Source: Solirubrobacterales bacterium (GTDB taxonomy: Bacteria; Actinomycetota; Thermoleophilia; Solirubrobacterales; Solirubrobacteraceae). From it: DNA of 64,000 nt. Shown here piece after piece: positions 2,284 to 60,834 of this stretch (within the stretch, counting starts at the first letter, position 1; each line of letters begins with the position of its first letter). The stretch lies in contig JAFAYP010000573.1 in assembly GCA_019240305.1 (NCBI GenBank), positions 34,239-98,238 on the forward strand, in the 5' to 3' direction. Made by a program: the position numbers and the translations under genes. The notes beneath the pieces are model-generated. The model worked only from the letters and a program-made list of their open reading frames with translations, made no database searches and was not told where the DNA came from.

Positions 2284-2327
2284 AGCGCGCCCGGAGAGAT
2301 TCGAACTCCCGACCTTCGGTTCCGTAG
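2284..2327. repeat. attL: attL core (44-bp tRNA-Arg 3' segment)
   Basis: These 44 bases are identical to 60759-60802. They include the T-arm and part of the anticodon arm of tRNA-Arg (containing TTCGAACTCCCGACCTTCGG). Beyond the identity one mismatch is followed by four further matching bases. The chromosomal terminator lies to the left and phage DNA to the right. Confidence 0.93.
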
Positions 2328-2443
2328 GCCGATTCAGCGCCCGTGGCGTTCGCGTCGGATCGGCTCGGATCGTGTCGGTTTGCAGCAGGTTCCTAGGGCC
2401 GTGGGCGCGGATCGCCTGTAGTGGCGGGATGGTGCTCCCGGCT

Positions 2444-3691: not shown

Positions 3692-3849
3692 GGGCCGCGA
3701 TCCGTCGCACCTATGAGCTGCTGCGCGACCGTGAGATCGCGATCGCCGAGGCCCGCTGGGCCGAGGCCGAGAAGGCCCGACGCCAGCGCGAGTTCCGCGC
3801 TGAATGCGACGCGCGATACGGACGCAGCAGCAGCGAGGAGCGACGCTGA
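3688..3849 (+). CDS. Small basic helical protein
   Basis: This 53-aa ORF is below the track threshold. ATG 3688 overlaps the previous stop and its TGA (3847-3849) overlaps the ATG of the alpha-galactosidase. Almost the whole chain is a charged Ala/Arg/Glu helix (AEARWAEAEKARRQREFRAE). The function is unknown; support comes from the tight overlaps on both sides. Confidence 0.5.
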   Translation: MRAAIRRTYELLRDREIAIAEARWAEAEKARRQREFRAECDARYGRSSSEERR

Positions 3850-5060
3850 TGCTTGCCGCGACGCCGTACATGGGATGGAGCACGTACTACGGGGGCGGCC
3901 AGCTCAGCGAGCCCGCGATCCTCGCGACCGCCAGCCGTATGCGCGACGACGGCCTCCAGAAGGCCGGCTACAAGCTCGTGTGGCTCGACTGGGGCTGGGC
4001 GGGGGCGCGGCGCAGCAAGGGCCGCATCATCGTCAACCGCTACCAGTGGCCGCACGGCATGAAGTACTTGACCGACCGGCTGCACGCCGAAGGGTTCAAG
4101 GCCGGGATCTACACCGACACCGGACGATCGGGCTGCAACGGCAACGGGATCGGCTCGCTGGGGCACTACCGCGCCGACATGCGCCAGTTCGCCGCCTGGG
4201 GATTCGATGCCGTCAAGGTCGATGACTGCGGCGGCGTGCAGCAGGGCGTCCGGGTCACCTTCGGCCAGCACGCCACCCCCACCGGCGCCACCTGCGCTCA
4301 CCTGGACCGCGGCGACACGCGGGCGCTGCCCGGTCACGCGCACCACACCGGGCCGATCCTGACCCCGTCGACACAGTACCGCCAGGTCGCGCAGGCGATC
4401 CGCGCCTCGGGACGGCCGATGATCCTGTCGGTCGCGAACCTGTGGGATCCCGGGGAGGTCGCCCACAACTACCCGACCTACGCCAACAGCGCCTACAGCA
4501 ACTACACGTGGGCGTCGCGTTTCGCGGCCTCGTGGCGGACCGACACCGACATCGGGTTCGCCGGGTGCATCCGCTGGCCGTGGGTGCTACGCAACTTCCG
4601 GGCCGACACCACGCACCCCGCGGCGGCACGCCCCGGCCACTGGAACGATCCTGACGATCTCGCCGCCGGGGTGGGCCTGAACTTCACCGAGGCGCGCGCG
4701 CAAACGCTCATGTGGTCGATGCTCGCCGCGCCACTGATGCTCGGCGGCAATCCGCTCACGATGAGCGCCCGCGCGCTGCGGATGCTGGAGAACCCGCGAG
4801 TCATCGCGGTAGACCAGGATCCCCGCGGCATCCAGGCCCGTCAGATCAGCCCGTACGTGTGGTCAAAGCCGCTCGTGAATGGTCGCGCGGTCGCGTTCTT
4901 CAACACCACCACCCGGCCACTGGCGCTCTCCACGAGCGCCCACGGGACCGCGTGCAACGTGTGGACGGGCCGGTGTCGCCAGGCACGCCAGACCTTGAGC
5001 GCCCGCGTGGCGCCGAATACCGCGATCGCGTGGACGATCGGAGAGGAGCGGAGTCGATGA
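3849..5060 (+). CDS. GH27 alpha-galactosidase-like glycoside hydrolase
   Basis: The 403-aa protein has the full GH27 (melibiase) layout: TPYMGWSTYY at the N-terminus, GYKLVWLDWGWAG, a VKVDDCGG motif whose D125 aligns with the nucleophile, WRTDTDI with D234 as acid/base, GHWNDPDDLAAG and LAAPLMLGGNPL. GH27 enzymes hydrolyse terminal alpha-D-galactosides and related sugars with retention. ATG 3849 overlaps the preceding stop. There is no signal peptide, so the product should stay cytoplasmic until lysis. It lies in the early operon directly behind the switch, which is unexpected for a phage. It may be a host-derived cargo gene that alters host glycans or catabolism. Confidence 0.85.
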   Translation: MLAATPYMGWSTYYGGGQLSEPAILATASRMRDDGLQKAGYKLVWLDWGWAGARRSKGRIIVNRYQWPHGMKYLTDRLHAEGFKAGIYTDTGRSGCNGNGIGSLGHYRADMRQFAAWGFDAVKVDDCGGVQQGVRVTFGQHATPTGATCAHLDRGDTRALPGHAHHTGPILTPSTQYRQVAQAIRASGRPMILSVANLWDPGEVAHNYPTYANSAYSNYTWASRFAASWRTDTDIGFAGCIRWPWVLRNFRADTTHPAAARPGHWNDPDDLAAGVGLNFTEARAQTLMWSMLAAPLMLGGNPLTMSARALRMLENPRVIAVDQDPRGIQARQISPYVWSKPLVNGRAVAFFNTTTRPLALSTSAHGTACNVWTGRCRQARQTLSARVAPNTAIAWTIGEERSR

Positions 5061-13717: not shown

Positions 13718-14521
13718 TTGCTCGGTCGAGCCGTGACCTTCGACTTCAGCGGACCACCCCCAGCAGCCGACTACCTAGTCGACGGCCTCCTCGAGCGCGG
13801 AACGATCACCGTGCTCTCGGCCGACTCCGGAGCCGGGAAGTCACTGATCGCCGCCAGCATGGCCGTAGCGATGATGCAAAGCCGTCCGTGGCTAGGACGC
13901 AGGACCACCGGCAAGCGCGTCATGTTCATCGACGAGGAGAACTTCTACCGGGTGATCTTCGGACGCCTGCTAGCGCTCGGCATGACCAACGAGGACCGGC
14001 AGAATCTCCTCTACTTTCTGCGTCTCGGCGTTGCGCTGGGATCGGGCGATTGGATGGAACGCGTCCGCGAGGAGATGGACGACTTTCACCCCGACCTGCT
14101 GGTGGTCGACACGGCAGCTGCGGCGACAAACGTCGAGCTCAATGACAACAGTGCCGTGGCGCGCCTGTACGCCACGTCGCTGCGTCCCCTAGTGGATGAT
14201 GCTGGGATGCTGCTCTTGCACCACGAGCGTAAGCCGCAGGGCAGCTATCAGCGACATGCCGGCCACGCGATGATGGGAGCTCGACAGTGGGCAGGCCAGG
14301 CGGACTCGCACCTGGCGCTCGAGCGGCTAGGTGACGTTGCCGTGGAGGCACTATCGGACGGCAGGATGCTGCGGCGCTACCCGTTGAAGATGGAGATGCC
14401 GAAGAACCGGGATGGGCGGAGCGTGAACGAGAAGATCGCGATCGTGTCTGAGCACAATCCGGGTTCGACGCAGCCGACGTGGCTGCGGGTGGACAGGGTT
14501 GGACGCGGTGACCTTACATGA
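13718..14521 (+). CDS. RecA-like AAA ATPase (RepA/DnaB-type helicase or loader)
   Basis: The protein (267 aa from TTG 13718, or 262 from GTG 13733, MTFDFSGPPP) has a Walker A in LSADSGAGKSLIAAS, a Walker B-like HPDLLVVDTAAA, and MLLLHHERKP followed by AMMGARQWAGQAD, the AAA_25/RepA pattern of hexameric helicase-like ATPases. It probably works with the primase at 54.9 kb in replication. Neither start has a strong ribosome-binding site. Confidence 0.75.
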   Translation: MLGRAVTFDFSGPPPAADYLVDGLLERGTITVLSADSGAGKSLIAASMAVAMMQSRPWLGRRTTGKRVMFIDEENFYRVIFGRLLALGMTNEDRQNLLYFLRLGVALGSGDWMERVREEMDDFHPDLLVVDTAAAATNVELNDNSAVARLYATSLRPLVDDAGMLLLHHERKPQGSYQRHAGHAMMGARQWAGQADSHLALERLGDVAVEALSDGRMLRRYPLKMEMPKNRDGRSVNEKIAIVSEHNPGSTQPTWLRVDRVGRGDLT

Positions 14522-25616: not shown

Positions 25617-26311
25617 TCTCGCTGCTCGTTCCGACGCGTGGGCGCCCTCACAATATCCGTAGGTTCGCGGAGAGCGTCGAGGCGACCGCATCTGCCCTAG
25701 TGGAGGTCGTGTGGTGCGTGGACGATGACGACGTCGAGTCCTTTGACGCAGTGATCCAGTGCAACGAGTGCGCCGAGATGACGAGCCATTGGCTGCTCGT
25801 GGCCCCGCGCGTAATCCCGTGCAAGCGCTGGAACGATGCGTGGCGTGCCGCCAATGGGAGCATCTTCGGCATGTTCGGCGACGACTGCGTGTTCCGGGCG
25901 TCGGGCTGGGACGAGATGGTCGAGCATGCGTTCGCTCGGTACCCGGACGGTATCGCGCTCGTGTACGGCCCCGACGGCTTTCGCAACCAGGCGCACGCGA
26001 GCCACCCCTTCCTCTCCCGCCAGTGGACGGATGCCCTGGGCGGCGCGACCGTCGAGTTCTTTAGTCAGGACTGGAACGACACGTGGATGAACTACCTCGG
26101 CGACGCGGTGGGGCGGCGCCACTACATCCCGGAACTCAGGATCCAGCACCTGCACCCCGACGATCCGAGCTTGGGGGTGCCGGAGGACGATACCTACCGG
26201 CAGAACCGAGAGCGGTGCGTCCGCGACCGAAATGCGGAGCGCTACGCGAGCACTGAGATGCAGCAACTGCGCGAGCAGGACGTGGCAAGGCTGCGGGCGG
26301 TCATGCGGTGA
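25613..26311 (+). CDS. Glycosyltransferase, GT2-like
   Basis: GTG 25613, overlapping the upstream TGA, is preferred over 25592. The 232-aa protein opens VISLLVPTRGRPHNIRRFAE, the classic GT-A start, followed by VVWCVDDDDVESFD (acidic cluster), FGMFGDDCVFRASGWDEMVE (DxD-like metal site) and a C-terminal TWMNYLGDAVGRR region. It probably transfers a nucleotide-activated sugar to a phage structural protein or other acceptor. The epimerase gene overlaps its stop. Confidence 0.8.
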   Translation: MISLLVPTRGRPHNIRRFAESVEATASALVEVVWCVDDDDVESFDAVIQCNECAEMTSHWLLVAPRVIPCKRWNDAWRAANGSIFGMFGDDCVFRASGWDEMVEHAFARYPDGIALVYGPDGFRNQAHASHPFLSRQWTDALGGATVEFFSQDWNDTWMNYLGDAVGRRHYIPELRIQHLHPDDPSLGVPEDDTYRQNRERCVRDRNAERYASTEMQQLREQDVARLRAVMR

Positions 26312-27261
26312 TTCTCGTCTGCGGCGCGGGCGGCTTCATCGGGGGCCACCTGGTGGAGCGGCTGCTGGCCGACGGCAAGGAGGTCCGCGCGGTTGACATC
26401 AAGCCGTGGGCTGCGTGGTGGCAGACGTATGCCGATGCTCAAAGCGTGTCGCTCTGTGACCTTCGGGATCCGATGGCATTCGTCGGCTCTGTGCGCGGGA
26501 TCGATGCGGTCTACAACCTTGCGTGCGATATGGGCGGCATGGGCTACATCGCGGCCCATAGGGCCGATTGCATGCTGTCCGTGTCGATCAACACGAACCT
26601 GCTGCAGCGGGCTTGGCGCTGGGGCGTCGACCGCTACTTCTACAGCAGTAGCGCGTGCGTCTATCCCGCCTATCGTCAGGCCCAGCCGGGCGCGGAGGGG
26701 CTGAAGGAGGCAGATGCTTACCCGGCCGATTGCGAGGACGGGTACGGCTGGGAGAAGCTGTTCTCCGAGCGACTGTGCCGTCACTTCGCGGAGGACTATG
26801 GGCTGGCGACGCGCGTCGCGCGCCTGCACAACTGTTACGGCCCGATGGGAACCTGGGCCGGCGGACGCGAGAAGGCCCCGGCCGCGATCTGCCGCAAGAT
26901 CGCCCAAGCGCAGCGCTCCGGCCATCACGAGATCGAGATCTGGGGCGACGGCGAGCAGACGCGCTCCTTCATGCACGTTGACGACTGCGTGGAGGGCATC
27001 CTGCGCATCATGCGCTCGTCCATGTCCGAGCCGATCAACCTCGGCAGCTCGGAACTCGTTTCGATCAATCAACTCGTGGATGCCGTCGAGGCGATCGCCG
27101 GGATCAAGGTTCGCCGTCGCTACGTGGATGGCCCCGAGGGCGTCCGTGGGCGGGCTAGTGACAACACGCTGATCCGATCGACCCTAGGCTGGGAGCCCTC
27201 GATCACGCTGGCAGAGGGGCTTCAGGGGACTTACCGCTGGATCTATGATCAGCTCGATTGA
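26308..27261 (+). CDS. NAD-dependent sugar epimerase, GDP-mannose 3,5-epimerase-like
   Basis: The 317-aa extended SDR protein has ILVCGAGGFIGGHLVERLLA (Rossmann GxxGxxG), YNLACDMGGMGYIAAH, YFYSSSACVYPAY (Ser/Thr) and DGYGWEKLFSER (YxxxK). The DMGGMG stretch and the WGDGEQTRSFMHVDDC block are hallmarks of GDP-mannose 3,5-epimerases, which convert GDP-mannose to GDP-L-galactose/L-gulose. It starts at GTG 26308 overlapping the GT2 stop. It probably supplies an activated sugar to the neighbouring glycosyltransferases. Confidence 0.82.
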   Translation: MILVCGAGGFIGGHLVERLLADGKEVRAVDIKPWAAWWQTYADAQSVSLCDLRDPMAFVGSVRGIDAVYNLACDMGGMGYIAAHRADCMLSVSINTNLLQRAWRWGVDRYFYSSSACVYPAYRQAQPGAEGLKEADAYPADCEDGYGWEKLFSERLCRHFAEDYGLATRVARLHNCYGPMGTWAGGREKAPAAICRKIAQAQRSGHHEIEIWGDGEQTRSFMHVDDCVEGILRIMRSSMSEPINLGSSELVSINQLVDAVEAIAGIKVRRRYVDGPEGVRGRASDNTLIRSTLGWEPSITLAEGLQGTYRWIYDQLD

Positions 27262-27919
27262 CCCGCCCGTGTTCATCACGGTGCGGGATCGTGTCGTGGA
27301 CCTGTGCCGACTGGTCGCGTGGCTTGAGCGCGCCGGGCACCAGCGGATCGTCCTGCTGGACAACGCGAGCACGTACGAGCCCGTCGTGGAGTACCTGCGC
27401 TCGACGCCGCACGATGTCGTCTGCTTGGGGAAGAACTTGGGCTCGCGGGCGCTCTGGCACGCCGGGCTGGCCCCACGCGACGAGTGGTTCGTGCTGACGG
27501 ACCCCGACGTGGTTCCCTTGGACGACTGCCCGCACGATGCGGTTCGGTACCTGCACGATCTCCTGCTGCGCTACGGCGGCCCGAAGGCGGCGCTCGGCCT
27601 GTACTTGGGCGACGTACCCGGGGATCTCGGGTGCCTTCCGTGGGAGCGGCAGCTGCTGGATCCGTGGCCTGGCGACAGCTGGCGCGGCAGGCTTGCCCCG
27701 GGGGTGTTCGACTCGCTGTCGGACACGACGTTCGCCCTGTACCCGCCCGGAGGCGCGTTCGGATATCACGCGCTGCGCACGGGGTGGCCGTACCAGGCGC
27801 GGCACATGCCGTGGTACGAGCCAGCTACGGACGAGGAGCGCGCCGAGCGCGCCTACTACCTGGCACACGCCAAGGGCGGCTGCGAGGGCTCAAGCTACAA
27901 AGACGGGCTGCAGGCCTAG
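27245..27919 (+). CDS. Glycosyltransferase, GT-A type
   Basis: The 224-aa protein shows a GT-A core: PPVFITVRDRVVDLCRLVAW, RIVLLDNASTYEPVVEYL, NLGSRALWHAGLAPRDEWFV, then LTDPDVVPLDDCP (DxD). A Tyr/Trp-rich C-terminal region (GWPYQARHMPWYEP) probably binds acceptor. It overlaps the end of the epimerase by 17 bases. It is likely the second transferase of the cassette. Confidence 0.78.
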   Translation: MISSIDPPVFITVRDRVVDLCRLVAWLERAGHQRIVLLDNASTYEPVVEYLRSTPHDVVCLGKNLGSRALWHAGLAPRDEWFVLTDPDVVPLDDCPHDAVRYLHDLLLRYGGPKAALGLYLGDVPGDLGCLPWERQLLDPWPGDSWRGRLAPGVFDSLSDTTFALYPPGGAFGYHALRTGWPYQARHMPWYEPATDEERAERAYYLAHAKGGCEGSSYKDGLQA

Positions 27920-51738: not shown

Positions 51739-52650
51739 ATGGCCGAGCTGCCTCGTAACGGCACGTTGCTCGAACTCGCAGAGAAGTATCAGACCAACCA
51801 GGCGCTCGCCGACCATCTTGGCGTGCCCCGGACCACCCTCCGGGATCATATCTACCGGCTGGGCATGCAGGAGGCCGTGAACGCGGTTCGCCGGCTGCCA
51901 GAGGTTGCGCAGCCCGACGAGATCCCAGTGGTCCGACGGGACTACTCCCACCAGGAGAAGCATTACCTCTACCCGCTGGGGGATCTTCACGTTGGGGCGA
52001 AGATGCACAACGAGAAGATGTGGAGCCAGTGGCTCGCCTACCTTGAGGATCGCGAGGAGACGAGCCTTCTGCTGACGGGCGACCTGTTGAACTCGGCGAT
52101 CGTCGGCAGCAAGTCGGACGTGTACGAGGAGCTGATGACCGTCGGCGACGCGAAGCGCCTCGTTCGCAAGCAGCTCTCCGTGCTTGCGAAGGAACGTCGC
52201 ATCGACGGCGCGGTCCCCGGCAACCATGAGGACCGAATCACTCGGGCCACCGGGGACTGCCCCATCCGGGACATCTGCGACGAGTTGAGCGTCCCGTACA
52301 TTCGGGCGGCGGCGCTGTTGATCTACACGGTCGGGGATCAGCAGTACGAGGTGTTTCTGCGTCACGGCACGGGCAGCGGCCAGGCGTTGACCGCGCTGAC
52401 GAGGACGCAGCAGGTCATCCGAGCGGACGTGTACATCCACGGGCACATTCACAATCAGGCCGCTCGCGTGGGGGACATGTTCGAGGCGAACGCGGGCCGG
52501 GTGAGCCGGCGGAAGTTCATCGCCTTGACGTCGGGGAGCTTCCTCGCGTATGAGAACTATGCGGCGGTGCGGGGCTACGCGCCGGGACATATGGGTTCGC
52601 CTCGCATCTTCCTGTCGGGGCGGCGGCACGACTTCCACGTCAGCCTGTGA
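51739..52650 (+). CDS. Calcineurin-like metallophosphoesterase with HTH
   Basis: ATG 51739 follows AAAGGGAG. The 303-aa protein has an N-terminal HTH (LLELAEKYQTNQALADHLG, VPRTTLRDHIYRLG). The phosphoesterase motifs then follow in order: YPLGDLHVGAK, LLLTGDLLNSA, GAVPGNHEDR, a later RHGTGSG and YIHGHIHNQ. The metal-binding D, H and N residues are all present. It could be a nuclease or phosphatase acting on phage DNA. The helicase-methylase fusion gene overlaps its stop. Confidence 0.83.
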   Translation: MAELPRNGTLLELAEKYQTNQALADHLGVPRTTLRDHIYRLGMQEAVNAVRRLPEVAQPDEIPVVRRDYSHQEKHYLYPLGDLHVGAKMHNEKMWSQWLAYLEDREETSLLLTGDLLNSAIVGSKSDVYEELMTVGDAKRLVRKQLSVLAKERRIDGAVPGNHEDRITRATGDCPIRDICDELSVPYIRAAALLIYTVGDQQYEVFLRHGTGSGQALTALTRTQQVIRADVYIHGHIHNQAARVGDMFEANAGRVSRRKFIALTSGSFLAYENYAAVRGYAPGHMGSPRIFLSGRRHDFHVSL

Positions 52651-54932
52651 GCGTAGGCGTTCCGGACGCAACGTCCGAGGGTCGCGATAAGCGTCGGCGC
52701 GTGCCATACGCCGAGTTCATCCGGCTCAAGCAGCTTGCCGACCCGCCGACGGGCTTCGACGCTCTCAGCGTGGGCGACTTCCTGTTCGATTGGCAGCAGG
52801 AGGTCGTGCGCTGGGCGCTTCAGCGCGGCCGGGCTGCGATCTTTGCCGATTGCGGCCTAGGCAAGACGCCGATCCAGCTGGAGTGGGCGCATCGCGTCTG
52901 CGAGCACTACGGCTCCGCAGCCAAGGTTCTGATTCTCGCGCCCTTGGCCGTCTCGGCGCAGACGTCGCGCGAGGGCGAGAAGTTCGGCCTCGGGGTCACG
53001 GTCTGTCGCGAGTCGGTCGACGTGCGCGACGGGATCAATGTCACGAACTACGAGCGTCTTGAGCGATTCAACCCGCGGGACTTCGACGGGATCGTGCTCG
53101 ACGAGTCGAGCATCCTGAAGTCCTACGATGGGAAGGTCCGCGGCCAGATCCAGGAGTTTGCGCGCCGAATCCCGTTCCGTCTCGCCTGCACGGCCACGCC
53201 CGCGCCGAACGATCACGCCGAGCTCGCGAACCACGCCGAGTTCCTGGGCGTGATGTCCGGCCGCGAGATGCTGGCCCTGTTCTTCAAGCAGGACGGCAAC
53301 ACAACGCACAAGTGGCGACTGAAGGGCCACGCCGAGTCGGAGTTCTGGAGGTGGCTGGCAACGTGGGCTGTGGCGCTGCGCTCGCCAGCCGACCTTGGAT
53401 ACGACGATGCGCAGTTCCGGCTCCCGAAGCTGAACATGCACAGCATCGTCGTCCCGTCCCCCCACGCTGGTGTCGGCTTGTTCAACGCGGAGGCGCAGAC
53501 GCTTCAAGAGCGCCAGCAGGCTCGCAAGCTGTCGATCCGCGAGCGAGTCGATGCCATCGCGGCCTACGTGAACACTGACGACGAACAGTGGCTCGTGTGG
53601 TGCAACCTCAATGCCGAGTCCGACGCTCTCGTCCGAGCGATCCCCGGCGCCGTCGAGGTCAAGGGTGCGGATAGCGCCGAGCACAAAGAGATGGCGATGC
53701 TGGACTTCTCCAGCGGGGACATCCGCGTGCTGGTTACGAAGCCGACGATCGCCGGGTTTGGGATGAACTGGCAGCAGTGCAAGAACGTCGCCTTCGTGGG
53801 GCTGTCGGACAGCTATGAGCAGTTCTACCAAGCGGTCCGTCGCTCGTGGCGGTTCGGGCAGCGCCGGCCGGTTGATTGCTACGTGGTGACCGCCGAGGCT
53901 GAGGGTGCTGTCGTTCGGAACATTGAGCGCAAGGAGCGCCAGGCGGCGCAGATGATGGAGAGCATCGTGGAGCACACTCAGGGCCTGAGTCTCGGGCGGT
54001 CGGATCGTCATGTTGTCGCCCACGAAACCGAGTCGCGCGAGGGCGCGGGGTGGACGCTGCATCTCGGCGATTGCGTTGACCGGCTCGCCGACGTGCAGGA
54101 CGCCAGCGTGGGGCTGTCGATCTTCAGCCCGCCCTTCCCGGGCATGTACGCCTACACGAACACTCCGCACGACATGGGCAACGTGGCGTCCCAGGAGGAG
54201 ATGGTCGAGCAGTTCGCCTACCTCGTGCCTGAGCTCCTGCGCGTGATGATGCCGGGACGCACCGTGGGAATACACCTGACGCAGGGCGTGGCGTTCAAGG
54301 GCACGGACGGCCACGTCGGGATCAAGGACTTCCGCGGCGCGGTGATCCGCACAATGGAACGAGGCGGCTTCATCTACTACGGCGAGGTCTGCATCGACAA
54401 GGATCCGCAGCTCAAGGCGATCCGGACGAAGGACAGCGGACTGCTGTTCAAGTCCTTGGCGACCGACGCCGCGAAGATGCACATGGCATTGGCCGACTAC
54501 GTGCTCCAGTTCCGCAAGCCGGGCGACAACCCCGAGCCGATCCGTGCCGGCGTATCCGAGAAGTACCGCAATCCCGACGGCTGGATCACGGCCGATGAAT
54601 GGATCGAGTGGGCCTCCCCAGTCTGGCAGCGCCGCCGCCCGGAGTTCCCGAACGGGATCCAGGAGACGAACGTGCTCAACGTTCGCGTGGCGAGCGAGGA
54701 GAAGGACGAGCGCCACCTCTGCCCACTGCAGCTTGACGTGATCGAGCGGTGCGTCAAGCTGTGGAGCAACCCCGGAGACCTTGTGCTCAGCCCGTTCGCC
54801 GGCATCGGCTCGGAGGGGCATGTGGCGCTGAAGCTGCGGCGGCGATTCGTCGGGGTTGAGCTGAAGCGCAGCTACTACGAGACAGCGTGCCGCAACTTGG
54901 AGGCGTCCGAGCAGCAGCTTGAACTCGTGTGA
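52647..54932 (+). CDS. SNF2-type helicase fused to a DNA methyltransferase
   Basis: The 761-aa protein has two halves. Residues about 40-450 are an SF2/SNF2 ATPase: IFADCGLGKTPIQLEW (motif I), VLDESSILKS (DExx), LACTATPAPNDHAEL (motif III), and QFYQAVRRSWRFGQRRPVDC (motif VI). Residues about 475-755 are an amino-methyltransferase of N6/N4 type: SIFSPPFPGMYAY (SPPF) before VLSPFAGIGSEGHVALKLRR (FxGxG), i.e. a beta-class order. It presumably translocates and methylates DNA, for anti-restriction or phage DNA marking. GTG 52647 overlaps the upstream stop. Confidence 0.85.
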   Translation: MSVGVPDATSEGRDKRRRVPYAEFIRLKQLADPPTGFDALSVGDFLFDWQQEVVRWALQRGRAAIFADCGLGKTPIQLEWAHRVCEHYGSAAKVLILAPLAVSAQTSREGEKFGLGVTVCRESVDVRDGINVTNYERLERFNPRDFDGIVLDESSILKSYDGKVRGQIQEFARRIPFRLACTATPAPNDHAELANHAEFLGVMSGREMLALFFKQDGNTTHKWRLKGHAESEFWRWLATWAVALRSPADLGYDDAQFRLPKLNMHSIVVPSPHAGVGLFNAEAQTLQERQQARKLSIRERVDAIAAYVNTDDEQWLVWCNLNAESDALVRAIPGAVEVKGADSAEHKEMAMLDFSSGDIRVLVTKPTIAGFGMNWQQCKNVAFVGLSDSYEQFYQAVRRSWRFGQRRPVDCYVVTAEAEGAVVRNIERKERQAAQMMESIVEHTQGLSLGRSDRHVVAHETESREGAGWTLHLGDCVDRLADVQDASVGLSIFSPPFPGMYAYTNTPHDMGNVASQEEMVEQFAYLVPELLRVMMPGRTVGIHLTQGVAFKGTDGHVGIKDFRGAVIRTMERGGFIYYGEVCIDKDPQLKAIRTKDSGLLFKSLATDAAKMHMALADYVLQFRKPGDNPEPIRAGVSEKYRNPDGWITADEWIEWASPVWQRRRPEFPNGIQETNVLNVRVASEEKDERHLCPLQLDVIERCVKLWSNPGDLVLSPFAGIGSEGHVALKLRRRFVGVELKRSYYETACRNLEASEQQLELV

Positions 54933-55744
54933 TCCCCGCCGAGCTGCGCGACCGCCGGCAGTGGGTTGCGTGGCGCAGTGAGGTGCGCGTCGGCCGCCCT
55001 ACCAAGGTGCCGGTCGACCCGCACACCGGGGGACGCGCCTCGAGCGTCGACCCCGCGACCTGGGCGACCTACCGTGAGGCGCTGGCGTGCGTGGAGGCGG
55101 ACGGGATCGGCTTCGTGTTCAGCGCCGACGACCCGTACGTGGGCGTCGACATGGACAATTGCGTGAGCCGAAGCGGGCAGATTCACCCGGGCGCCTACCG
55201 GGTCGTGAAGCTGCTCTCCGGGTACGTCGAGTTCAGCCCGTCCGGGCACGGGATGCACGTGATCGTCCGCGGCTCCCTGGGGCGTGGTCGACATACCCTC
55301 GCAACGCCGTGGCGGGATGAGCTCGCGATCTACGATCGCGGCCGCTTCTTCACCATGACTGATGAGGGTCGCGGCGAGCCGAGGGAGGCGCAGGACGCAT
55401 TGAGCGAGCTGATCGCCTTCTACTTCCCCGAGCCCGACGATAAGCCCCCTGTCGCGCACCGTCAGCCCCTCTGCGACGATGACGCGGGGGTGGTGGACCG
55501 AATCATGGGGGACGCCCGGACGGCAGCCCTGTGGGCCGGAGACACGTCCCTGCATGGTGGCGATCACTCGGCCGCGGACATGGCGCTGTGCGCGCACCTT
55601 GCGTACTTCACCGGGAACGACGCGGCGAGGATCGATGCCCTGTTCAGACGCAGTGCCCTGTTCCGGGACAAGTGGGATGAGCCGAGGGGGGATGGGACCT
55701 ATGGGTCGATCACCATCGAACGGGCGCTGCGTGGCCGCTCGTAA
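54929..55744 (+). CDS. AEP-type primase / primase-polymerase
   Basis: The 271-aa protein from GTG 54929 (GTGA overlap) has the phage primase N-terminal pattern RRQWVAWRSEVRVGRPTKVP, GIGFVFSADDPYVGVDMDNC (acidic metal ligands), and VEFSPSGHGMHVIVRGSLG. The C-terminal helical bundle (LWAGDTSLHGGDHSAADMAL, then IDALFRRSALFRDKWDE) matches the bundle found with NrS-1-type polymerases. It probably primes phage replication with the RecA-like ATPase at 13.7 kb. Confidence 0.75.
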   Translation: MIPAELRDRRQWVAWRSEVRVGRPTKVPVDPHTGGRASSVDPATWATYREALACVEADGIGFVFSADDPYVGVDMDNCVSRSGQIHPGAYRVVKLLSGYVEFSPSGHGMHVIVRGSLGRGRHTLATPWRDELAIYDRGRFFTMTDEGRGEPREAQDALSELIAFYFPEPDDKPPVAHRQPLCDDDAGVVDRIMGDARTAALWAGDTSLHGGDHSAADMALCAHLAYFTGNDAARIDALFRRSALFRDKWDEPRGDGTYGSITIERALRGRS

Positions 55745-56168
55745 CGTCGGCCGCGTCTACCTGTGCGGGCGCATGACGAATACCCCGGGCTTCTCGTTCC
55801 ACGTGTTTGACGCCGTCGCGGGGGAGCTTCGGGAGCGCGGGATCGAGGTGGTGACTCCCTCTGAGCTCGACTCGCCCAGCTCGCGCCAGGCAGCGCGGGC
55901 GTCGGAGGGCGGCGACGCTGACGCGTACTATGCGGCCACCGGGGAGAGCCGGGGCGTCCTGATGGGCCGCGATGTTCGGATCGTGATCGACGACGTGGAC
56001 TGCGTGGTCGTGATCCCCGGCTGGCGCAAGTCCCGCGGCGCGCGCCTTGAAACGTTCGCGGCATGGCTGCACGACAGGCCGGTCTTGTACTACCCGACCT
56101 TGCGTCGGGTGCCGTTCGCGGCACTGCTGTCGGCTTGGGTGGGAAGGAGTGGCCGGTGGGAATCGTGA
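55731..56168 (+). CDS. DUF4406 nucleotide-metabolism protein
   Basis: GTG 55731 overlaps the primase end. The 145-aa protein shows RVYLCGRMTNTPGFSFHVFD, VVTPSELDSPSSRQA, and VVIPGWRKSRGARLETFAAW, the DUF4406 pattern, related in fold to nucleoside 2-deoxyribosyltransferases. Phage members sit with nucleotide-pool genes, as here. Confidence 0.78.
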   Translation: MAARNVGRVYLCGRMTNTPGFSFHVFDAVAGELRERGIEVVTPSELDSPSSRQAARASEGGDADAYYAATGESRGVLMGRDVRIVIDDVDCVVVIPGWRKSRGARLETFAAWLHDRPVLYYPTLRRVPFAALLSAWVGRSGRWES

Positions 56169-56596
56169 CCTCTGGGCAGACGAATGGGCTGGGGCGCTGT
56201 GAGGCGTGCCCGTCGGCCGCCGGCACCCCGCACGCTCCTGACTGCCCTAGGGATGGAGGGTTCGTGATTAGGGACTCGGGTGTCCGCGAGGACTACCCGT
56301 CGGGGATGCGCCGCGACACGCAGGAGGGTAAGACGAACTATCTGCTGGCGCTCGACGGCCCCATGTTCAGGCGCTACGCGGAGCACATGTCGAAGGGGGC
56401 TGTCAAATACGGCCCGCGGAACTGGCAGCTCGCTGATTCGGAGGAAGAGCTCGAGCGCTTCAGGCAGAGTGCTTTCCGGCACATGATCCAGTGGCTTGAT
56501 GGGGATCGGACCGAGGATCACGCGATGGCGGTTGTCTTCAACCTGAATGCCGCGTCCTACGTCGAGGACCGCCTTGCTCGGAAGGGTGGCGCTTGA
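56156..56596 (+). CDS. dATP/dGTP pyrophosphohydrolase-like protein (DUF5664 type)
   Basis: GTG 56156 has GAAGGAG before it and overlaps the previous gene by 13 bases. A short Cys-containing N-terminus (CEACPSAAGTPHAPDC) precedes the conserved domain IRDSGVREDYPSGMRRDTQE, GAVKYGPRNWQ and RTEDHAMAVVFNLNAASYVE. This domain is annotated as dATP/dGTP diphosphohydrolase N-terminal or MazG-like. It would balance dNTP pools. The N-terminal cysteines look like an added zinc ribbon. Confidence 0.75.
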   Translation: MGIVTSGQTNGLGRCEACPSAAGTPHAPDCPRDGGFVIRDSGVREDYPSGMRRDTQEGKTNYLLALDGPMFRRYAEHMSKGAVKYGPRNWQLADSEEELERFRQSAFRHMIQWLDGDRTEDHAMAVVFNLNAASYVEDRLARKGGA

Positions 56597-57474
56597 CGCT
56601 GACGGTCGGCTCGCTGTTCGCTGGCATCGGAGGCTTCGATCTCGGGCTTGAGCGCGCAGGCATGCGTACCGCCTGGTTCTGCTCGCAGAACCAGTTCTGC
56701 CAGCGCGTGCTCGCCAAGCACTGGCCGGGGGTGCCCTGCTACCCCGACGTTCAAGAAGTGACTGCTGGGGCCGTCGAGCCGGTCGATGTTCTCTGTGGCG
56801 GTTTTCCCTGTCAGGACATCAGTTTGGCTGGGAAGGGAGCTGGACTTGCGGGAGCGCGCTCGGGTCTTTGGTCAGAGTTCGCCCGTCTCATTGGGGAGCT
56901 TGAGCCGCGATGGGTCATCGTGGAGAACGTCTCAGCTCTCCTTGGACGGGGACTCTCAGTTGTTCTCGCAGACCTTTCCGCGCTCGGGTATGACGCGGAG
57001 TGGGACTGCATACCAGCTTGCGCCGTTGGCGCCCCTCACCGCCGCGACCGGGTCTGGGTCGTTGCCTACCCCAACGGCGAAGGCGAGCATGCTCGCGCCG
57101 TCGATGCAGAAGTGGGCGTCGCACCGGAACCTGTGGCCGACCCCGACAGCACGGGACCACAAGGACACGGGCGATTTGAGCAACGTCCCAGAGAACGGCC
57201 TGCTGCCGCGGATAGTGCAACGGGTGGAGCGGGAGAGACTTCCGACGCCCACCGGTTCCGTCGGAACCGGTGGGCCGGGCATAAGCCCGAAGCGCACGGG
57301 TGGGGAGAACCTGCGGACGCGGGTTGGTGGACAGTTGAACCCGACGTGGGTCGAGTGGCTAATGGGGTTCCCGCTCGGGTGGACAGACTTAGGAGCCTCG
57401 GCAACGCCCTCGTCCCGCAGATCGCGGAGTGGATCGGCAGACGCATCCTCGCTTGGGAAGCCGGCAACGCGTGA
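56593..57474 (+). CDS. DNA cytosine-C5 methyltransferase
   Basis: The 293-aa protein has motif I LTVGSLFAGIGGFDLGLERA, catalytic motif IV GGFPCQDIS (Cys73), motif VI WVIVENVSALL, motif VIII GAPHRRDRVWVVA and motif IX/X VDRLRSLGNALVPQIAEWIG. The target-recognition region between VIII and IX is short (about 90 residues). It would methylate cytosine in a short sequence, probably protecting phage DNA from host restriction. A second, fully open frame overlaps its 3' two-thirds. Confidence 0.9.
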   Translation: MTLTVGSLFAGIGGFDLGLERAGMRTAWFCSQNQFCQRVLAKHWPGVPCYPDVQEVTAGAVEPVDVLCGGFPCQDISLAGKGAGLAGARSGLWSEFARLIGELEPRWVIVENVSALLGRGLSVVLADLSALGYDAEWDCIPACAVGAPHRRDRVWVVAYPNGEGEHARAVDAEVGVAPEPVADPDSTGPQGHGRFEQRPRERPAAADSATGGAGETSDAHRFRRNRWAGHKPEAHGWGEPADAGWWTVEPDVGRVANGVPARVDRLRSLGNALVPQIAEWIGRRILAWEAGNA

Positions 57475-57626
57475 CCGAACCCCCGAGCGTTGACGACTAC
57501 TTCCAAGCCGCCCACCAGCTCGCCCGGCTCGTTCGTGCCGCCTTCGACAAGCCGGGCAGCGTGAAGCGACCCGAGCTGCTGCGAGCGCTCGAACGCTTCG
57601 AGCAGATCGATAAGGAGGCCAGGTGA
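57471..57626 (+). CDS. Small hypothetical protein
   Basis: A 51-aa protein from GTG 57471, overlapping the methyltransferase stop, is helical (DDYFQAAHQLARLVRAAFDK). Function unknown; the chain of GTGA junctions supports expression. Confidence 0.5.
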   Translation: MTEPPSVDDYFQAAHQLARLVRAAFDKPGSVKRPELLRALERFEQIDKEAR

Positions 57627-58069: not shown

Positions 58070-58245
58070 TTGCCGATGCTTCCGCCGTCGCGTTCTTGGT
58101 GGCGCTGGTGATGATCGCGGGCGGCCTTGCTGCAGCGCCCGCGCAGAGGGACGGCACGCGGTCGGTCAAGGGCCCGGGGATCAGCGTGGCGATTCTCGCT
58201 CTCGTGGTCGCTGGCGTGGTGCTGAGCGTCCACGCGCTGCTGTGA
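58066..58245 (+). CDS. Small two-helix membrane protein
   Basis: This 59-aa gene is absent from the track. ATG 58066 has GGAGGG upstream and overlaps the previous stop. Two hydrophobic helices (AVAFLVALVMIAGGLAAAPA; ISVAILALVVAGVVLSVHAL) flank a short basic loop. It is small enough for a holin, but its early-region position argues for another membrane role. Confidence 0.6.
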   Translation: MIADASAVAFLVALVMIAGGLAAAPAQRDGTRSVKGPGISVAILALVVAGVVLSVHALL

Positions 58246-58772
58246 GTGGGGGCCTGCGGGTCGTTCAGGTCACCAAGGACGAGGCAAACGCCTGGGTTGG
58301 GCAGTACCATCGACACAGCGCGCCCGTTGTGCAGCACGTCTTTTCGCTCGGCGCCCTAGCGGGCGAGGAGTTCGTCGGCGTAGCCATCGTTGAGCGGCCC
58401 AAGGCACGCGGCAACCAAGACGGCTGGACGCTGGAAGTCACCCGCGTTTGCACGCTCGGGCACCGGAACGCCTGCTCGTTTCTCTACGGCACGTGTTGGC
58501 GATCCATGAAGGCGATGGGCTGGCTTCGTGGCGTGACCTACACGAAGGACAACGAGACAGGCGCGAGTGTCCGCGCTGCGGGCTGGGTCGCGTGCGGCAG
58601 CACAAGGGCACGCACATGGGACACGCCAAGCCGTCCGCGCAAGGCCCCGAAGTACGGGGTTGCCGGTCGGATACGTTGGGAGATCCGTGCTGCCGCCTGG
58701 CACGAGGGCCTAGATCCACGGCCGAGAATTGCCGTCGGAGCGACGAACCTTGGGCAAGGGGCGCTCCTGTGA
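58242..58772 (+). CDS. XF1762-like protein (GNAT-related)
   Basis: GTG 58242 overlaps the upstream stop. The 176-aa protein has LRVVQVTKDEANAWVGQYHR, VGVAIVERPKARGNQDGWTL, EVTRVCTLGHRNACSFLYGT and TYTKDNETGASVRAAGW, the pattern of the XF1762 family common in phages and related to acetyltransferases. Substrate unknown. The truncated upstream part of the track ORF is a shadow. Confidence 0.75.
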   Translation: MSGGLRVVQVTKDEANAWVGQYHRHSAPVVQHVFSLGALAGEEFVGVAIVERPKARGNQDGWTLEVTRVCTLGHRNACSFLYGTCWRSMKAMGWLRGVTYTKDNETGASVRAAGWVACGSTRARTWDTPSRPRKAPKYGVAGRIRWEIRAAAWHEGLDPRPRIAVGATNLGQGALL

Positions 58773-59227: not shown

Positions 59228-60289
59228 ATGCCGGCTACGCAGCGCGGTCAGGTCGACCGCATCGCCGCCGGGAAGTGGCGCCTTCGCTGGTACGACCTCG
59301 ACGGCAAGCGCCACGCCAAGCAGCCGTTCTCGTCCAAGTCCGCCGCGTGGAAGCACTTCCGCGAGCACGTCGAGCCGCTGCTAACCGGAGGAACGCCCCC
59401 GCGGCCCGAGCTGACGTTGAGCGAGTTCATCGCGCTCTACCTCGACCGCCACGCTGCGGACGTTCGCCCAAGGACGATCGCTACGCTGCGGGAACGACTC
59501 GGCCACGCGGAGCGACGGTTCGGCGCGCTCCCTCTCCACGAGCTGGAGGGCATGACGGACGAGATCGTGGCGTGGCGTACCCGACAGCCAGCACGGATCG
59601 CTCACGGGCGCATGAGCGCCCTGCGGCAGTGTCTCGCCGCCGCGGTCCGCTGGGGCTACATGACGCGCAACCCGGCCGTTCTCGCGGGGCGTAACCGTCG
59701 CCCCGCTCCGCGCACCATCCGCGCGTTCTCGATGGGCGAGCTTGAGGCGATCAGCGTCGAGCTTTCCCCGCAGTACCGGTCGGTCCCGTTGTTCGCTGCT
59801 GCTACTGGCCTCCGTCCGGAGGAGTGGCAGGCGCTCGAACGCCGGGACATTGATCGCGCCGCTGGCGTTCTGGGCGTCCGGCGCACCATCTCATCAGGCA
59901 AGGTTGTCGAGCTCGGGAAGACTTCCCGTTCTCGGCGACAGGTGCCGCTGTCCCCTCGGGCCTTGGCTGCGCTTGACGCGCTGCCTGCTCGGCTGGGCAC
60001 GCCCCTGCTGTGGCCGTCCCCTACGGGCGGCCTCCTTTGCTTGGATAACTGGCGGTCGCGTGAGTGGTCGCCTGCGGTCGAGGCGGCCGGGGTTCGTCGG
60101 CCGGCGCGGATCTACGATCTGCGCTCCACGTTCGCGTCGAATGCCCTGGCTGCTGGCGTGAGCGCGTTTGAGCTGGCGCGGATCATGGGAACGAGCGTGG
60201 CGATGATCGAGCTGCACTACGGCTCCCTGTTGGATGGGGCGGCGGCGGGGATCGCGGCGCGGCTGGGCGCCTTTGAGGCGACGAGCTAG
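59228..60289 (+). CDS. int: Tyrosine integrase
   Basis: The 353-aa protein has an N-terminal arm-binding region (AAGKWRLRWYDLDGKRHAKQ), a SAM-like core-binding domain (LTLSEFIALYLDRHAADVRP) and a catalytic domain with R196 in TGLRPEEW, a Lys in KTSRSRRQVPLS, R299 in YDLRSTFASN and nucleophile Y331 in HYGSLL. The canonical first His of HxxR is Tyr, as in several actinophage integrases. It lies 470 bases from attR and its stop shares a CTAG with the convergent secreted-protein gene. Confidence 0.92.
   Translation: MPATQRGQVDRIAAGKWRLRWYDLDGKRHAKQPFSSKSAAWKHFREHVEPLLTGGTPPRPELTLSEFIALYLDRHAADVRPRTIATLRERLGHAERRFGALPLHELEGMTDEIVAWRTRQPARIAHGRMSALRQCLAAAVRWGYMTRNPAVLAGRNRRPAPRTIRAFSMGELEAISVELSPQYRSVPLFAAATGLRPEEWQALERRDIDRAAGVLGVRRTISSGKVVELGKTSRSRRQVPLSPRALAALDALPARLGTPLLWPSPTGGLLCLDNWRSREWSPAVEAAGVRRPARIYDLRSTFASNALAAGVSAFELARIMGTSVAMIELHYGSLLDGAAAGIAARLGAFEATS

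Positions 60290-60758: not shown

Positions 60759-60834
<76 letters not shown>

Follow-up and report, generated by a model that had tools for sequence, protein, structure and literature searches.

Two DNA methyltransferases encoded in one arm of a prophage are the principal subjects of this analysis. The first, a SNF2-type ATPase joined in a single chain to a beta-class N4/N6 DNA methyltransferase, is real and is a further member of a known phage "helicase/methylase" family (phrog_16). With moderate confidence, it is explained as a phage self-modification enzyme directed against host restriction, with the neighboring phosphoesterase incidental. The second, a C5 cytosine methyltransferase, receives strong support from comparative sequence evidence as a double-coding gene: a split enzyme, known in kind, specified by two overlapping frames. 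This split enzyme is the most interesting item of the neighborhood; it is both widespread and mis-annotated in phages.

Both genes reside in a 58.5-kb siphovirus prophage within the window (the whole stretch of DNA analyzed, 64,000 nucleotides; Table 1). The prophage is bracketed by 49-bp direct repeats (att), which correspond to the 3' part of a tRNA-Arg gene, and its gene set includes integrase, terminase, portal, capsid, tape measure, Erf annealase, exonuclease, and SSB. The source genome comprises 633 contigs and is 73% complete. Two IMG/VR contigs are identical to the prophage, or one base apart, across the shared stretches, and so do not provide independent evidence.

Three modification functions are encoded between 52.6 and 58.8 kb: the SNF2-methyltransferase, the two-frame C5 methyltransferase, and an XF1762/Mom-like protein, which scores 167.1 bits against NCBIfam NF045478 (curated cut-off, 50). 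The latter two genes lie inside the 4 kb downstream of the fusion.

Table 1. Features of the prophage arm and its boundaries (window coordinates)
Feature	Coordinates	Strand	Remarks
attL	2284..2332		49-bp direct repeat of tRNA-Arg 3' part; 48/49 match to 60759-60807
Metallophosphoesterase	51739..52650	+	303 aa; predicted N-terminal HTH-like helices; phrog_7339, Metallophos_2, fold, alignment
SNF2-type ATPase + beta-class N4/N6 DNA methyltransferase, one chain	52647..54932	+	761 aa; start possibly 52701
Primase-like protein with NrS-1 polymerase helix-bundle domain	54929..55744	+	271 aa; 4-nt overlap with fusion
DUF4406 / nucleoside 2-deoxyribosyltransferase-like	55701..56168	+	
dATP/dGTP diphosphohydrolase N-terminal-like protein	56264..56596	+	Longer start 56063 possible
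C5 cytosine methyltransferase, alpha (main) frame	56593..57474	+	FPCQ (IV), ENV (VI), HRRDR (VIII), motif X
Beta (+1) frame overlapping C5 gene, motif IX	56884..57493	+	Onset from synonymous constraint
XF1762-family / Mom-like DNA modification protein	58242..58772	+	NCBIfam NF045478; phrog_1384
Tyrosine integrase	59228..60289	+	
attR	60759..60807		At tRNA-Arg (60760-60834, minus)

A second reading frame in the C5 methyltransferase gene

The alpha frame of the C5 gene follows the pattern of an M.EcoHK31I-type main chain: the early motifs, motif VIII, and motif X (GNALVP, 57400-57417) are present, and motif IX is absent. Motif IX (WLMGFP, 57356-57373) is found in the overlapping beta frame. The beta ORF opens at an ATG at 56786, and synonymous constraint starts at about 56884-56893.

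Searches with the beta frame (tblastn, IMG/VR) returned hundreds of relatives, situated at +1 to a methyltransferase frame in 158 of 158 loci. In 70 homologues picked by the main frame alone, +1 stops numbered 1.54, where synonymous shuffling predicts 4.26; for +2 stops, the observed number (8.07) agrees with the shuffled expectation (7.98). Four-fold-site changes that create +1 stops are likewise depleted (31 observed, 231 expected). Among 141 phage homologues, 130 have a +1 frame that runs without interruption, and none has such a +2 frame; the +1 frame is kept open even where GC content is 44-52%, in several phages and one plasmid. Together, the synonymous shuffling, the four-fold sites, and the 44-52% GC cases rule out chance openness in GC-rich DNA.

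Four-fold divergence in the alpha frame stays near 0.6 through codon 95, is 0.26-0.34 from codon 101, drops to 0.07 at codons 131-135 and to 0.00 at codons 251-260, and then rises again; synonymous divergence is zero where motif IX is encoded. Control SNF2 genes remain flat near 0.7. Recombination as the source of the low synonymous divergence is ruled out, because no slowdown is seen at first and second codon positions.

The beta frame ends with the sequence LNPxWVEWLMGFPxGWTDL. An enzyme from a Candidatus Megaera plasmid carries a sequence of this type in frame, 22 residues before its motif X (GNAVVP), and the beta-frame sequence is accordingly read as motif IX. Among the 141 homologues, the main frame contains motif X in 135 and an LMGFP-type motif IX in none; a candidate motif IX-like sequence occurs in the +1 frame in 126. 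The beta-frame product shows no hhalign similarity to the alpha-frame product, so it is not a homologue of the latter.

How the beta frame is entered may involve a +1 frameshift. No conserved start codon is found near the onset of constraint, and a near-universal ATG, 23-24 codons past the ENV motif, lies 3' of that onset.

Lee et al. are said to have described, in 1995, the small gene of M.EcoHK31I nested inside the large one in another frame. The large subunit of that enzyme contains motifs I-VIII and X, and the small one motif IX (PMC3404938). At the sequence level the phage C5 gene is laid out alike, but it differs in being phage-borne and in that no restriction enzyme is seen.

The C5 enzyme is very probably composed of two subunits, of which the one carrying motif IX is hidden in the +1 frame, and the large phage family to which it belongs would normally be double-coding, though annotated by one frame or the other (phrog_363, phrog_1008). 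PHROGs places the +1 product separately, as the "DNA methyltransferase" phrog_1008, and in Komagataeibacter phage phiKX1 the +1 frame alone is annotated. Among the papers searched, none dealt with overlapping frames in C5 methylases of phages. If this reading is correct, the members of a large phage family of cytosine methylases appear to depend on two proteins from the same DNA, and annotation, cloning, or methylome prediction from one frame would yield an inactive C5 enzyme. The family also offers a large natural sample of deep protein-coding overlap.

The SNF2-methyltransferase fusion and its family

The fusion ORF is present exactly as the initial annotation described it, and its identification as a single-chain helicase plus N6/N4 methyltransferase is borne out. 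Domain matches are to Helicase_C, SNF2 (slightly under cut-off), and N6_N4_Mtase, and a single profile, phrog_16, spans both halves (residues 46-757, E=8.2e-67). About 45 residues precede the helicase. The SNF2-type ATPase comes first and the methyltransferase is C-terminal; within the latter, SPPF (motif IV) precedes FAGIG (motif I), which is the beta order. A structure model of moderate confidence (mean pLDDT 74) matches SNF2 remodellers and the methyltransferase TTHA0409. SPPF is an N4-cytosine signature, as in M.PvuII, and prediction from this motif alone makes N4-cytosine a more likely target base than N6-adenine.

The overlap between fusion and phosphoesterase that had been proposed depends on the start codon: it is 4 nt from the GTG at 52647 and vanishes with the GTG at 52701. 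Most relatives align from residue 19-21 on, and a few from residue 1-8.

A phage-wide tblastn search with the fusion matched 440 phage records, 304 of them over at least 80% of its length and all at less than 60% identity. Some of these relatives already are annotated as "DNA helicase/methylase". The phrog_16 proteins of this name share domain order, motifs, and size with the fusion; examples come from mycobacteriophages Gorge and Cerasum, Arthrobacter phage Hestia, and Pseudomonas and Synechococcus phage relatives. The prophage copy is fused, whereas many relatives consist of two overlapping genes. Helicase and methyltransferase are constantly coupled: among the loci collected, 14 have the pair fused and 52 have it as two genes that adjoin or overlap. 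The earlier idea of a set compacted for a phage is not supported, since such split and fused forms are widespread in phages and published work already describes phage SWI2/SNF2 ATPases coupled to methylases (PMC5512222).

Motifs are near-invariant among 53 relatives: GxGKT (45/47), DES (50/50), TATP, QA.RR..R.GQ, and SPPF. Neighboring genes chiefly encode primases, polymerases, and DnaB-type helicases. Mycobacteriophages Ramsey and Spikelee carry helicase, methylase, and C5 methyltransferase in the same order as the prophage, and further relatives occur on bacterial-genome contigs, mostly from Clostridia, and on a few plasmids. One relative (L008:4539-5900) has about 450 additional N-terminal residues without a Pfam match.

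Self-modification, replication, or defense

We infer the methylated base, translocation, and anti-restriction effect as follows. The fusion would be produced together with the replication genes; its SNF2 motor would travel on double-stranded phage DNA while the beta-class methyltransferase at the C-terminus modifies an amino group, that of cytosine N4 being likelier than that of adenine N6; and host restriction enzymes would be unable to cut the DNA so methylated. The modification genes of the arm probably camouflage phage DNA from bacterial restriction enzymes.

This anti-restriction reading, one of those raised initially, is the best supported: the methyltransferase motifs are intact, there is no nuclease partner, and the arm holds a second and a third modification gene, which favor self-modification over defense. 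No nuclease domain was found in the fusion chain (Pfam/PHROG), in contrast to Type ISP restriction enzymes (LlaBIII-like), in which the nuclease is part of the helicase-methyltransferase chain. An HNH protein was considered as a hidden restriction subunit and rejected: 54 of 55 loci of fusion relatives have no such partner within 3 kb, and one does. The fusion being a widespread phage modification enzyme, a plain methylome would reveal its action.

A related methylase-helicase dyad, DarB of phage P1, has an anti-restriction role (PMC5512222). DarB and other dyads of polyvalent proteins likewise couple a phage-encoded SWI2/SNF2 ATPase to a DNA methyltransferase. The architecture differs, however: DarB is a giant virion protein in which the methylase is EcoKI/TaqI-like and precedes the helicase on its N-terminal side, and which also contains LPD36, whereas the fusion is a chain of 761 aa with a C-terminal methyltransferase of the beta class.

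An alternative, to which we assign a distinctly lower probability, is that the fusion serves replication or gene expression. Methylation would then mark origins or promoters rather than protect against restriction, and the motor would strip host proteins or RNA polymerase off DNA. The replication-gene neighbors fit a replication or transcription role too, the fusion overlaps the primase-like gene by 4 nt, and the best structural matches are chromatin remodellers, CSB, and RapA. Against this, the methyltransferase half is kept, catalytically complete, throughout the family, and two further modification genes share the arm. The arm also contains, between the two methyltransferases, a nucleotide-metabolism pair (DUF4406/deoxyribosyltransferase-like and diphosphohydrolase-like, 55701-56596), which could serve base modification.

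The phosphoesterase

The immediate upstream neighbor of the fusion is a calcineurin-type phosphoesterase whose ORF likewise is exactly as first described. This protein belongs to phrog_7339 (E=1.5e-31, with calcineurin-like metal-ligand motifs) and matches Pfam Metallophos_2 barely above the cut-off. Its metal ligands are complete, and D82, H84, G114-D115, N162-H163, H209, H236, and H238 are invariant in a 51-sequence alignment. The AlphaFold model (mean pLDDT 89.6) finds its best PDB fold match in DP1, the small subunit of archaeal PolD (E=3.2e-8), whose fold is that of a 3'-5' exonuclease, and there is a weak NCBIfam DP1 match as well. The fold match and the complete ligand set resemble those of PolD DP1 and Mre11-type exonucleases, although the TM-score is just about 0.5, the identity is 13%, and the N-terminus is HTH-like. 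The protein probably is a DNA 3'-5' exonuclease or phosphodiesterase.

The "HTH-metallophosphoesterase" of the initial annotation thus holds for its second half. For the HTH, no family match was found; helices are predicted at residues 20-27 and 31-41 with modest confidence (pLDDT about 63-80), which makes an N-terminal HTH plausible, if weakly predicted. Most viral relatives have an N-terminus too short to include this region.

Among 60 genomes related to the host, none encodes the phosphoesterase, so it arrived with the phage. Its relatives in IMG/VR (loci L069-L143) recurrently neighbor genes for the terminase large subunit and portal, which suggests a family role tied to packaging or DNA ends.

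The proposed coupling of phosphoesterase and fusion finds no support. Several points would favor a joint module, such as a restriction-modification-like pair in which the phosphoesterase supplies the nuclease: the two are adjacent on the same strand with a possible 4-nt overlap, the phosphoesterase belongs to a DNA-exonuclease-like family with PolD DP1 as best fold match, and a Geobacillus phage has a related phosphoesterase whose gene overlaps that of a small methyltransferase, so phosphoesterases and methyltransferases may be weakly linked. A motif search, however, placed no phosphoesterase next to the helicase-methyltransferase pair, or within 1 kb of it, in any of 66 other loci; in three of them one lies at least 1.4 kb away. 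Conversely, none of the 78 phosphoesterase loci outside the prophage's own phage has a SNF2 gene nearby, three show a weak methyltransferase match, and most lie near terminase or portal genes. The pairing is confined to the prophage's phage and its identical metagenome copies, and phages with the SNF2-methyltransferase but without the phosphoesterase already are the rule. A shared module is accordingly improbable; the link is not supported, and the phosphoesterase is a separate gene, adjacent to the fusion by chance.

Least probable of all is that the prophage set forms a DISARM-like defense system against other phages. Helicase, methyltransferase, and C5 methyltransferase do look like DISARM pieces, as noted initially, and the C5 enzyme matches DrmMII, albeit weakly and among many stronger type II matches, but PADLOC found no DrmA, DrmB, or DrmC and no other clear defense system (generic methyltransferase models only) among the larger non-structural prophage proteins, and a nuclease partner is lacking. 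A search of the host genome for the MZB family gave two matches, both on other contigs, and these are uninformative because the MZB domain occurs in other helicases too. The C5 gene is "next to" the fusion, as first described, in a wide sense: three genes separate the two, and the C5 gene starts 1.66 kb downstream.

Other features of the prophage

A RepA-like AAA ATPase (13718-14521) and the NrS-1-type primase part (54929-55744) are encoded 40 kb apart, and each matches just part of longer primase/helicase families. An alpha-galactosidase gene (melibiase, GH27-like; 3849-5060) in the prophage's left arm has no PHROGs match. Two genes lie between the head and tail genes, at 26308-27919: one encodes an NAD-dependent sugar epimerase/dehydratase, and the other is a 224-aa ORF that has no match but begins like a glycosyltransferase; virion glycosylation is a possible function for these sugar genes.
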